Positions 39,652 through 42,947 of a stretch of 64,000 nucleotides of DNA are shown here, one piece after another. The stretch spans positions 1 to 64,000 of the forward strand of contig NZ_CP132343.1 of the NCBI RefSeq assembly GCF_040529065.1. The letters run 5' to 3'. How positions within the stretch are numbered: position 1 is the stretch's first letter; every line of letters begins with the position of its first letter. Made by a program: the position numbers and the translations under genes. Source of the DNA: Xanthomonas sacchari (GTDB lineage: Bacteria > Pseudomonadota > Gammaproteobacteria > Xanthomonadales > Xanthomonadaceae). The notes beneath the pieces are model-generated. The model was not told where the DNA came from and made no database searches. It worked only from the letters and a program-made list of their open reading frames with translations.

Positions 39652-39887
39652 GCGGCCAGTGTAGCCGGCCGCGTCTCAATCGCTGCGCCACGCGCCGGCA
39701 CGCGGAGGAGAGCGGATATACCTTGGTATCGCCGCCATGGCCTCATGCAGGCTGGTGCACACCTGAGCCGCATGCCAAGCTTTGCGCCACCCGCTCCTGG
39801 CCCGGCCAGTGAGCGGCACCGCGGCATCCGACCGCGCCAGACCGTCGCGCTCCGCGCGATCCGTTCCCCCTGACACCGGAGGCGAGC

Positions 39888-39968
39888 ATGGACCCCGATC
39901 CGCATCGACGCGGCGTCAGCGCCGCATTCCCCCACCGCTCCCCTCGCCTGGTCGCTGCCCGGCGCTGA
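39888..39968 (+). CDS. 26-residue leader peptide, MDPDP-type, upstream of the MgtC operon
   Basis: A short ORF with a strong ribosome-binding site (GGAGGCGAGC, then ATG) begins Met-Asp-Pro-Asp-Pro and has further prolines at positions 15 and 19. It ends RRGVSAAFPHRSPRLVAARR, stop at 39966-39968. Enterobacterial MgtL, the leader of the Mg2+ transporter gene mgtA, begins Met-Glu-Pro-Asp-Pro. Acidic-Pro starts are known to destabilise ribosomes at low Mg2+. The position before an mgtC-family gene makes a Mg2+-sensing role plausible. It is unproven, and the rest of the peptide is unrelated. Confidence 0.55.
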   Translation: MDPDPHRRGVSAAFPHRSPRLVAARR

Positions 39969-40035
39969 GCCGGAAGACGCCCGCTGCCCGCACGCTGCGA
40001 CGTCCTTGCCGGCCACGCGCCGCAAGGAGGTCGTC
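39969..40035 (+). promoter_or_regulatory. candidate attenuator: two mutually exclusive hairpins, one hiding the Shine-Dalgarno
   Basis: Hairpin 1: GCCGGAAGACG (39969-39979) pairs with CGTCcTTgCCGGC (40001-40013), 11 pairs with two bulges. Hairpin 2: TCCTTGC (40003-40009) pairs perfectly with GCAAGGA (40022-40028), extended by GACG/CGTC (39999-40002 with 40032-40035). It buries the AAGGAGG ribosome-binding site of the gene at 40036. The two structures share 40001-40009 and cannot coexist. Hairpin 1 begins one base after the leader stop codon, so a ribosome completing the leader would mask its first arm and favour SD closure. There is no U-tract, so this is translational rather than intrinsic transcription control. 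Confidence 0.55.
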
Positions 40036-40362
40036 ATGTTCGTGTTCTCGCTGTTTTCCCGTCGTTTCCGCCTGCAGCGCTGCCTGCAGCGCGCGCTGCG
40101 CGCCGCGGTCGCCATGCGCCGCACCGAGGCGCTGCGCCATCTGCTCGCCGCCCACGGCGCGCGCGCCTTCGCGCTGGCGCTGTCCGCGCAGTCACCGCGG
40201 GTGATGGCCGATGCACTGTCGCTGCTGTCCGTCGCCGACCGCATCCGGGTCCGCGCGCGGCTGCCGCATGCGGCGCAGCGGCGCCTGCACGAGGCCGGGG
40301 TGAGTGCCCCGGCGGCGCACTGGCTGCCTGCCGCGCTGGCGTGGCGGCCCGGGGTGCGCTGA
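40036..40362 (+). CDS. small basic protein, function unknown, first gene after the leader
   Basis: 108 residues, Arg/Ala/Leu-rich (LQRCLQRALRAAVAMRRTEA), with predicted helices throughout and no signal peptide or membrane segment. It has an excellent Shine-Dalgarno (AAGGAGG) that lies in the attenuator, so its translation is the likely regulated step. I do not recognise it. It precedes the MgtC-family gene by 126 bp on the same strand and is probably co-regulated. Confidence 0.65.
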   Translation: MFVFSLFSRRFRLQRCLQRALRAAVAMRRTEALRHLLAAHGARAFALALSAQSPRVMADALSLLSVADRIRVRARLPHAAQRRLHEAGVSAPAAHWLPAALAWRPGVR

Positions 40363-41259: not shown

Positions 41260-42330
41260 ATGATCGCCTGGTTCAAGCCGCTGCCGCCGCACCGCCGCCT
41301 GCTCGGCCTGGCCGCGCTGTGCCTTGCGCTGGGCGCGATCTTCGTCGCCGACACGGTCACCGACTACGCGGTGGCGGCGGCGCTGTTCTACACCGTGGCG
41401 ATCCTCGGCGCGGTGCGGCTGCTGGCACCGGTCGGACTCGGCGTACTGGCCGGCATCTGCGTGGTGCTGGTCGTGCTCAGCTTCCATCTCACCCACGCCG
41501 GCGCCTACCACGTCGGCGTGATCAACTCGGCGATCAGCATCGTGGTGGTGGCGGTCACCGCCTCCATCGCGGTGCGCATGGAGCGCGCCAAGGCCGCCGC
41601 GCACGCGGCGCAGGCGCAATTGCTGCGGCTGGCGCGGGTGCGCAGCCTGGGCAGCCTCACCGCCTCGATCGCGCACGAGGTCAACCAGCCGCTGGCGGCC
41701 ATCGTCACCAGCGGCAATGCCTGCCAGCGCTGGCTCGACCAGCAGCCGCCGAACCTGGACAAGGCGCGCGCGGCGCTGGCGCGCATCCTCGCCGACGCCG
41801 AGCGCGCCGGCGAGGTGATCGCACGGGTGCGCAGCCTGACCCGCGGCGAGGCGCCGCAGCAGCGCGCCTTCGATCTCAACGCCGCGGTCAACGAAGTGCT
41901 GGCGCTGTCGCAGGGCGAACTGGAGCGCAGCGCGGTCAGCGTGCACACCGAACTGTCGGCGCTGCTGCCGCCGGTGTCGGCCGACCCGGTGCAGATCCAG
42001 CAGGTGATCGGCAACCTGCTGCTCAATGCGATCGAGGCGATGGCCGCCACGCCGCCAGCACTGCGCACGCTGCGCATCGTCACCGAACGCGAGGACGCAC
42101 GTTCGGTGCGGCTGAGCGTGGCCGACAGCGGCGAAGGCCTGACCGCACAAGCGCAGGCGCACCTGTTTGATGCGTTCTGGACCACCAAACAGGGCGGCAT
42201 CGGCATCGGCCTGAGCATCAGCCGCAGCATCGTCGAGGCCGGCGGCGGCCGCATCTGGGCCGAACCGGGGCGACCGTGCGGCGCGGTGTTCCACGTGTGC
42301 CTGCCCACCGCCAACGGAGTGCGGCCATGA
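41260..42330 (+). CDS. membrane sensor histidine kinase
   Basis: 356 residues. Three or four N-terminal membrane helices (~12-105) have little periplasmic sequence, so it probably senses within the membrane. The H-box is TASIAHEVNQPLAA (His139). The N-box is NLLLNAIEAM, and the G-boxes are DSGEG and GGIGIGLSISRSIV. It is of the FixL/DctB-like subgroup that pairs with FixJ-type regulators. Its stop overlaps the response regulator start (ATGA). The signal is unknown. Confidence 0.92.
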   Translation: MIAWFKPLPPHRRLLGLAALCLALGAIFVADTVTDYAVAAALFYTVAILGAVRLLAPVGLGVLAGICVVLVVLSFHLTHAGAYHVGVINSAISIVVVAVTASIAVRMERAKAAAHAAQAQLLRLARVRSLGSLTASIAHEVNQPLAAIVTSGNACQRWLDQQPPNLDKARAALARILADAERAGEVIARVRSLTRGEAPQQRAFDLNAAVNEVLALSQGELERSAVSVHTELSALLPPVSADPVQIQQVIGNLLLNAIEAMAATPPALRTLRIVTEREDARSVRLSVADSGEGLTAQAQAHLFDAFWTTKQGGIGIGLSISRSIVEAGGGRIWAEPGRPCGAVFHVCLPTANGVRP

Positions 42331-42947
42331 CCACCGACGCGAGCGCCCGCCCGGTGGTGTACCTGATCGACGACGACGCCTCGATCCGCGCCGCGCTGGA
42401 AGACCTGTTCGCCTCCGTGGACCTGCAGGTGCATGCCTTCGCCTCGACCCGCGACTTCCTGGCGCACACATGCGTCGACGCGCCGAGCTGCCTGGTGCTG
42501 GACATCCGCATGCCCGGACAGAGCGGCATGGACTTCCACCGCACCATGCACGAGGCCGGGTTGGCGCTTCCGACCATCTTCATCACCGGCCATGGCGATA
42601 TCCCGATGAGCGTGGAGGCGATGAAGAACGGCGCGATCGAGTTCCTGACCAAGCCATTCCGCGACCAGGACCTGCTCGATGCGATCGGCCAGGGCATCGC
42701 CCGCGACCGCGCGCGCCGCGCCGCCGAAGCCGTGCAGGCCGAGCTGCAGGCACGCTGGGCGCGGCTCAGCGCCGGCGAACGCGAGGTGGTGGAACTGGTG
42801 GTGCAGGGCCTGCTCAACAAGCAGGTGGCGGCGCGGCTGCAGCTCAGCGAGATCACGGTGAAGGTGCGCCGCGGCAATGCGATGCGCAAGCTGGAGGTCG
42901 GCTCGCTGGCGGAGCTGGTGCGGCTGGCGGAGCGGCTGGGTCGATAG
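42327..42947 (+). CDS. FixJ/LuxR-family response regulator
   Basis: 206 residues. The receiver domain has the phospho-acceptor Asp59 (LVLDIRMPG), Thr87 (FITGHGD) and Lys109 (EFLTKPF). The LuxR-type HTH (~140-203) contains LSAGEREVVELVVQGLLNKQ and SEITVKVRRGNAMRKL. It is translationally coupled to the kinase, so it is its cognate partner. The targets are not evident. The MgtC gene immediately upstream is an obvious candidate. Confidence 0.93.
   Translation: MTTDASARPVVYLIDDDASIRAALEDLFASVDLQVHAFASTRDFLAHTCVDAPSCLVLDIRMPGQSGMDFHRTMHEAGLALPTIFITGHGDIPMSVEAMKNGAIEFLTKPFRDQDLLDAIGQGIARDRARRAAEAVQAELQARWARLSAGEREVVELVVQGLLNKQVAARLQLSEITVKVRRGNAMRKLEVGSLAELVRLAERLGR

Follow-up and report, generated by a model that had tools for sequence, protein, structure and literature searches.

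The gene for an MgtC/SapB family protein in Xanthomonas sacchari is preceded by a 26-codon open reading frame (ORF) that begins Met-Asp-Pro-Asp-Pro and by a small gene whose Shine-Dalgarno (SD) sequence is enclosed in an RNA hairpin. This leader is conserved among relatives and is tied to Mg2+ genes, the SD hairpin recurs across clades, and in Stenotrophomonas-like relatives both the SD-closing helix and its competitor covary. We consider the element to be a Mg2+-sensing leader-peptide attenuator of a magnesium operon whose output is translational, through the SD hairpin, and we give this reading a probability of about 0.55. Its parts differ in strength. That the leader and its tie to Mg2+ genes are real is close to certain, and the peptide very likely belongs to the MgtL/MgtQ type of Mg2+-linked leaders; sensing of Mg2+ through the stability of the ribosome is likely. 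As to output, control of translation by way of the SD hairpin is the best reading, if an unproven one, with Rho-dependent termination as its main rival.

In the model that we infer, transcription would start upstream of the leader, and ribosomes would initiate at its good SD and immediately make Met-Asp-Pro-Asp-Pro, an acidic-proline start expected to destabilise ribosomes under Mg2+ shortage. With Mg2+ in sufficient supply the ribosome would reach the stop codon and cover the arm at or near the end of the leader, and the hairpin over the SD of the small gene would stay closed. When Mg2+ is low the ribosome would drop off early and the exposed arm would capture the shared arm of the nascent RNA, so that the SD would remain open and the small MgtE_N-like protein and the product of the Mg2+ gene behind it would be made. 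Control in this direction would act mainly at the level of translation.

The locus and the small MgtE_N-like protein

The window analysed is the whole stretch of 64,000 nucleotides, and the features of the element are collected in Table 1. On the forward strand the palindrome core is followed by the leader, the small gene, mgtC, a histidine kinase gene and the gene for a LuxR-type response regulator, and a divergent RmuC gene precedes them all. A reading made earlier from the sequence only had described the 26-codon ORF with its strong SD and Met-Asp-Pro-Asp-Pro start, and this description stands (ATG at 39888, stop codon at 39966-39968); 67 bases separate the leader from the small gene. The same reading placed an MgtC-family operon downstream. 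MgtC is indeed present, scoring 118.2 bits against PF02308, above the cut-off of 31.4, with its closest named relative in Xanthomonas sp. F10 (99% identity), but it is the second gene, and the gene that comes next and owns the buried SD encodes the 108-amino-acid protein. The kinase and regulator genes (41260-42947) lie immediately 3' of mgtC and may share its unit. Elsewhere in the source genome (G000:C1:4438697-4439080) there is a second, more distant MgtC-like frame with 39% identity across 124 query residues.

Table 1. Features of the leader region and the genes behind it, in window coordinates.
Feature	Position	Strand	Basis
Palindrome core TACCTTGGTA, TATACC-NN-GGTATA type, candidate operator	39719..39728	.	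169 nt before leader
Leader SD, GGAGG	39878..39882	+	Sequence; five bases before leader ATG
Leader ORF, 26 aa, MDPDPHRRGVSAAFPHRSPRLVAARR (stop included)	39888..39968	+	Sequence; conserved among relatives
Leader codons 1-5, Met-Asp-Pro-Asp-Pro, conserved portion of peptide	39888..39902	+	0/15 columns variable, 6 near relatives
Arm 1 (anti-sequestrator arm), GCCGGAAGACG, non-coding, conserved	39969..39979	+	10/11 columns invariant, 9 sequences
SD-sequestering hairpin, 15 pairs, -25.4 kcal/mol	39997..40034	+	Letters of every pair kept in 9/9 relatives
Arm 2, CGTCCTTGCCGGC, shared arm able to pair with arm 1 or SD arm	40001..40013	+	Pairing analysis
Small gene SD, AAGGAGG	40024..40030	+	Sequence
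Small gene, 108 aa, likely stand-alone MgtE_N-like superhelical protein	40036..40362	+	Profile, structure and fold matches
MgtC/SapB family protein, 242 aa	40489..41217	+	PF02308 E 3.4e-34; PF21770 E 9.6e-13

Taken alone, the small protein of the window matched no family in Pfam or NCBIfam. Among 37 members of its own family, however, 12 matched PF03448 (MgtE_N) at E values up to 1 (best 1.9e-5; the window protein was unmatched), and the best match of the family profile to a solved structure was MgtE (2yvy, E 0.0054). NCBIfam gave nothing notable for six members, the best match being TIGR00400 mgtE at E 0.28 in one of them. The predicted model has seven helices at a pLDDT of 71.6, and its top Foldseek match is the cytosolic domain of MgtE (2oux), with a probability of 0.96 but an E value of 1.2; none of the matches reached E 0.001 or better, and FliG structures were also among them. 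The profile matches and the predicted fold together suggest that the protein is likely to be a stand-alone MgtE_N-like protein. Its likeness to the N domain (PF03448) of the MgtE Mg2+ channel is weak but consistent in sequence and predicted fold, and it differs from the channel in standing alone, at about 94-149 amino acids, without the CBS or membrane part. The protein is restricted in its distribution, since a class-wide search found it in 3 of 369 genomes; a plasmid search for copies of the leader and small gene gave no match.

The palindrome is rare in this DNA: TACCNNGGTA has one match only in 64 kb, where 0.08 would be expected, and ATACCNNGGTAT has three sites in the whole source genome (G000), that of the window included. 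In 53 of the 79 loci scanned (for example L115, L116 and L143), all 53 belonging to the Xanthomonadaceae, it lies upstream of the leader at a distance of 106-274 bases. The other palindrome sites in three genomes formed no clear regulon by eye. We regard the palindrome as a candidate operator of the transcript, with the adjacent two-component pair perhaps supplying the regulator.

Conservation of the leader and its tie to Mg2+ genes

Circularity was avoided by searching genomes with the small protein only and inspecting the upstream region afterwards. In the genus set, which we read as Stenotrophomonas-like, the small gene was found in 50 of 91 genomes; ATG-GAY-CCN-GAY-CC lies within 300 bases upstream on the same strand in 49 of them and MNPDP in the fiftieth, giving a leader in 50 of 50. 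At the level of the family 21 of 247 genomes matched (ten Xanthomonas, six of the Stenotrophomonas-like set, two of a third genus and three spurious), and the leader is present in ten of ten Xanthomonas (nine MDPDP, one MNPDP) and, as MDPDP, in both genomes of the third genus. Family-search matches in very long open frames (L244-L246) were rejected, L245 and L246 being unrelated by eye and L244 unmatched on re-scan. In a second family set, which we read as Burkholderiaceae-like, 15 of 250 genomes matched and 12 were accepted as real. Eight of these 12 have a leader (five ATG-DPDP, one GTG-DPDP, one MDPEP and one MDPVP), a count that omits L157 and L159, whose frames were judged unrelated, and L158; no leader was seen in the other four small-gene loci (L147, L148, L149 and L151).

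Only 15 of the 80 MgtC loci examined have the small gene at E 1e-7 or better, so most of the MgtC loci listed are without the cassette. The small gene lies at the very edge in three of the 15, and among the 12 others 11 have a leader, which reads MDPDP in six of them, MDPYP in three Paracidovorax, MDPAP in one Acidovorax and GTG-DPDP in L071. The locus L012 has the small gene and MgtC but no leader, in L064 MDPDP stands immediately ahead of MgtC and no small gene was found, and the X. albilineans group (L005, L006) has MgtC without the cassette. The Burkholderiaceae-like and MgtC sets overlap, because L146 and L071 share small genes, as do L151 and L012.

Conservation of the DPDP codons in Xanthomonas and Stenotrophomonas relatives had been proposed as a check on the leader, and it is seen at the level of the codon as well as in the counts above. 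In codons 2-5 change is almost exclusively silent, with Asn2 the sole replacement in each of two sets (47 distinct Stenotrophomonas-like and 15 distinct Xanthomonas leaders), although these sequences were recruited partly via a leader pattern that demanded Asp2, Pro3 and Pro5 (two Asn2 leaders were included manually) and thus partly constrains those positions by construction; the counts from the small-gene search are free of that constraint. Further along, the Stenotrophomonas-like leaders are moderately variable at codons 6-8 and 10 and widely variable at codons 9 and 11-14, and the variable codons beyond the first five in Xanthomonas are 7, 10, 11, 13 and 14. We read this pattern as selection acting on the first five residues of the peptide.

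A working microprotein, or mere coupling of translation to the next gene without sensing, would also account for an ORF that has a good SD in most cases and always lies closely upstream of the small gene (gaps of 35-70 nt). Yet conservation between clades is confined to the first five residues; the tail cannot be aligned, leader length ranges from 16 to 57 amino acids and in L131 the tail appears to be frame-shifted, which sits poorly with a microprotein, while the gaps are long for simple coupling, and we hold this explanation to be improbable.

Class-wide, the pattern GGAG followed by M[DE]P[DE]P, which misses cassettes with weaker SDs such as that of G243, occurs in 9 of 369 genomes, two of which are this cassette. 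The matches in the seven other genomes were rejected: two are the starts of long ORFs and five are short ORFs with no downstream Mg2+ gene recognised by eye. One ORF of seven residues, MDPDPTI (L253, in G277), has GGAG and lies about 31 bases ahead of another frame, which we take to resemble a class I fructose-bisphosphate aldolase. A 30-residue MDPDP ORF common to three Xanthomonas genomes (L099, L101, L105) was dropped because it is antisense to a long ORF. The rarity of the pattern bears on whether a random short ORF has simply fallen beside GC-rich hairpins. GC-rich DNA does form hairpins readily, and closure of the SD in the window exceeds that in shuffles of the gap only modestly (p 0.033, a single sequence), but the arrangement is conserved in three genera of Xanthomonadaceae and in a second family; the conservation of the leader places the observation beyond chance, an origin that we find scarcely credible.

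The genes behind the cassette were tallied for those distinct full small genes, 73 in all, that are followed by 900 bases or more of sequence. What they precede is MgtA in 42 cases, MgtC in 24 (one of which also matched RND), MgtE in one, an RND adaptor in four and none of these in two. A Mg2+ gene (MgtA, MgtC or MgtE) thus stands behind 67 of the 73, and 64 of the 69 distinct small genes that bear a leader lie in cis before one. The share of MgtC is inflated because the set was gathered partly via MgtC and partly via the leader pattern; that of MgtA is not, because no MgtA search brought loci in. In most Stenotrophomonas-like loci the cassette is followed by the MgtA transporter, and one locus of this group (L247) has MgtC in place of its relatives' MgtA. 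The source genome has two E1-E2 ATPases, whose identity to MgtA of the Stenotrophomonas-like set is 24-27% over the best aligned stretches; they were rejected as MgtA, looking CopA-like and KdpB-like instead.

Two further arrangements were noted among these loci. Four distinct cassettes (L143, L145, L083/L239 and L241) sit before an RND/HlyD-type adaptor in place of a Mg2+ gene, an arrangement that speaks against the Mg2+ reading. In Comamonadaceae-type loci a second small ORF with a good SD lies upstream of the leader (L114, at 1040-1231, L015, L064 and L153) or upstream of MgtC (L013); it encodes 63 residues in L114, where it has no Pfam match, and 66 or more elsewhere, with the motif WPTHRIR.FL, which is looser in L064 and L013.

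The Salmonella mgtP leader reportedly senses the translation of proline, and the leader described here might likewise respond to proline translation (EF-P, charged tRNA-Pro) and not to Mg2+ itself. Pro3 and Pro5 occur in 78 of 78 leaders and position 4 is other than Asp in six, figures that are partly a matter of construction, the pattern having fixed Asp2, Pro3 and Pro5; one leader reads MDPVPPPPPTE. Against this, position 4 is Asp or Glu in 73 of the 78 (Y, A or V in the other five), isolated prolines stall weakly according to the passages cited from PMC8092293, and the genes downstream are Mg2+ genes. We judge proline sensing to be unlikely and Mg2+ sensing the better reading.

RNA structure and the output of the leader

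The sequence-only reading had set out three arms (39969-39979, 40001-40013 and 40022-40028), all correctly placed, and a hairpin that buries the SD. The SD is buried, but the real hairpin (39997-40034) is bigger than was supposed and stronger than its competitor. Arm 2 has GCAAGGA at 40022-40028 as its alternative partner. The z score of the SD hairpin is -4.68, with 0 of 200 shuffles equally stable; for the competing hairpin (39969-40013, -19.4 kcal/mol) it is -1.63, and 18 of 200 shuffles are equally stable. A known riboswitch was rejected as the identity of the leader region, since Rfam, including its Mg2+ riboswitches, gave no match above the gathering score in the window or in 10 relative loci. 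No T-run of an intrinsic terminator was seen by eye 3' of the hairpins among the sequences listed.

A hairpin hiding the SD of the next gene is found not only in the window but also in the local gap folds of most of 20 representatives, where it is built from unrelated sequences (-14 to -34 kcal/mol); embedding of the SD is weak in L071, L015 and L156. Closure of the SD exceeds that of dinucleotide shuffles with a combined p of 6e-6 over 13 clade representatives, and with a p of 6e-8 over all 25 sequences, which are not independent; it was no better than shuffles in several clades taken singly (Comamonas, some Stenotrophomonas-like, Lampropedia). Control genes of the window are often partly closed too (25% of 44 genes with the SD at or below 0.2 unpaired).

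Covariation in both hairpins had been proposed as a further check. It is seen in part. Of 44 distinct sequences in the Stenotrophomonas-like set, 43 were used (L175, whose gap is longer, was omitted, and two RND-type loci were not in the set); pairing in these 43 is 98.8% for the closing helix and 94.8% for the competing helix, against 31-59% for slid controls. One pair of the closing helix is AU in 28 sequences and GC in 15, and the competing helix has 23 two-sided cells. For the closing helix neither two-sided changes nor pair-type counts rise above shuffles in these 43 sequences; for the competitor both are mildly above them (86 and 23 of 500 shuffles, respectively, reach the observed values). 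Alignment column 66 pairs with column 80 as AU in 28 and GC in 15, and with column 24 as UA in 27, CG in 8, UG in 7 and another combination in 1; these are tallies of sequences and not of events, which may have been few. Compensation by one column with both of its partners is the pattern expected of a shared arm. The Xanthomonas set (nine distinct sequences from 13 loci) is too uniform to add to this: closing pairs are 100% kept and competing pairs 98.6%, and shuffles equal these values. A third alignment (five distinct sequences from six loci) was aligned and folded and stands outside the pair counts.

Arm 1 lies outside any ORF and outside the SD-closing helix, and its invariance in the nine sequences (10 of 11 columns) exceeds that of the loop (4 of 18; Fisher p 4e-4) and of the leader tail (20 of 48; p 0.003). 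Upstream pairing of the shared arm has a combined p of 8e-4 over 20 representatives, not all of them independent; in the window the competing helix is no better than shuffles (p 0.35).

In the window, forcing the SD open (at 40025-40031, a stretch shifted by one base from the SD itself) gives a form about 15 kcal/mol less stable than the closed one. When a ribosome footprint was placed on each codon in turn, partition-function folding left the SD mostly closed everywhere, with no consistent rise in its exposure upon early drop-off. Thus the proposed logic of the switch, in which completion of the leader closes the SD and early drop-off opens it, fares unevenly: the leader is conserved, the genes are Mg2+ genes, most clades have an SD-closing hairpin and arm 1 is almost invariant, but no switch appears at equilibrium and the competitor of the window is unexceptional. 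Since equilibrium folding holds the SD shut wherever the ribosome stands, a switch requires co-transcriptional folding or another output such as Rho. In a translational device the competitor would have to prevail by kinetics and fold ahead of transcription of the SD. Such kinetic capture of the shared arm is plausible because the competitor lies 5' and is completed first.

The same Mg2+-sensing leader could instead deliver its output through Rho, full translation of the leader letting Rho act and early drop-off refolding the RNA so as to hide the Rho site. This is how the enteric mgtA and corA leaders work in the passages cited (PMC11282234, PMC11552253), C exceeds G in the leader coding stretch in 12 of 12 groups (C:G 1.11-2.13), and the equilibrium folds yield no translational switch. 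A pure Rho device would not need an SD hairpin, however, and one recurs from unrelated sequences in most clades; the richness in C may stem from the coding of many prolines and from the composition of the genome, and C is also abundant in the opening 60 bases of the small gene. We therefore treat termination by Rho as a possibility to be taken seriously, though a rather doubtful one, and retain translational output through the SD hairpin as the preferred reading.

Relation to known leaders and significance

The leader has the features of the mgtL and mgtQ type, namely a short ORF, a good SD and early acidic and proline residues. In the passages on Salmonella mgtQ drawn on here (PMC8092293), Asp2 and Glu5 reduce translation of an eight-residue upstream ORF and an alternative stem-loop frees the SD of mgtB. 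The likeness of the cassette to this system (mgtCBRU) extends to the early acidic residues with proline and to mutually exclusive stem-loops, one hiding the SD of the next Mg2+ gene; in mgtQ, too, early loss of the ribosome raises downstream translation, and its operon also contains mgtC. The two differ in that mgtQ lies between mgtC and mgtB, in enterics, whereas the longer leader of the cassette stands ahead of the first recognised gene, nearly always begins MDPDP and precedes an MgtE_N-like gene. MgtL, the leader of mgtA in E. coli and Salmonella, likewise has an N-terminal acidic-proline motif (EPDP) upstream of a Mg2+ importer; the motif causes ribosomes to drop off at low Mg2+, with Rho as the output, in the passages cited from PMC11282234, while the visible output of the cassette is an SD hairpin. 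The resemblance of the leader to MgtL is likely to be convergence. CorL, the leader of corA, is similarly an upstream ORF linked inversely to a Mg2+ channel gene but, according to the passages cited from PMC11552253, it has a Rho output and fewer acidic and proline residues.

A switch of this kind had been thought undescribed outside enterics. Because Salmonella mgtQ already works in this way the logic of the switch is known, and an mgtQ-like ORF before mgtB in Brucella is reported by the mgtQ authors in the passages cited (PMC8092293). In a literature search that had preprints and many subscription papers outside its scope, no report of such a leader in either family, and none of the small protein with a leader, was recognised among the matches listed. 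The host range, the cassette of leader and small gene, and the MgtE_N-like partner appear new within the literature searched.

A broader proposition, on which we are evenly divided, is that a portable cassette for Mg2+ homeostasis, consisting of an MDPDP leader that senses Mg2+ via ribosome stability and a new stand-alone MgtE_N-like family, has been placed before the unrelated MgtA, MgtC and MgtE in Xanthomonadaceae and Burkholderiaceae, its SD-closing switch being rebuilt from unrelated sequence in each clade. Sensing of Mg2+ by acidic-proline leaders through ribosome stability is so far known from few enteric operons, and the same five residues, kept while the tail is freer, before mgtA, mgtC and mgtE in other families would make such sensing a general strategy. 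If the proposition is true, nascent-chain sensing of Mg2+ arose, or spread, well beyond the enterics, and dozens of natural leader variants would be on hand for testing what the ribosome reads. The uncharacterised MgtE_N-like family that accompanies the leader lends itself to a Mg2+-binding test and, on the same condition, its members may be a second, protein-level Mg2+ sensor under the control of the leader.
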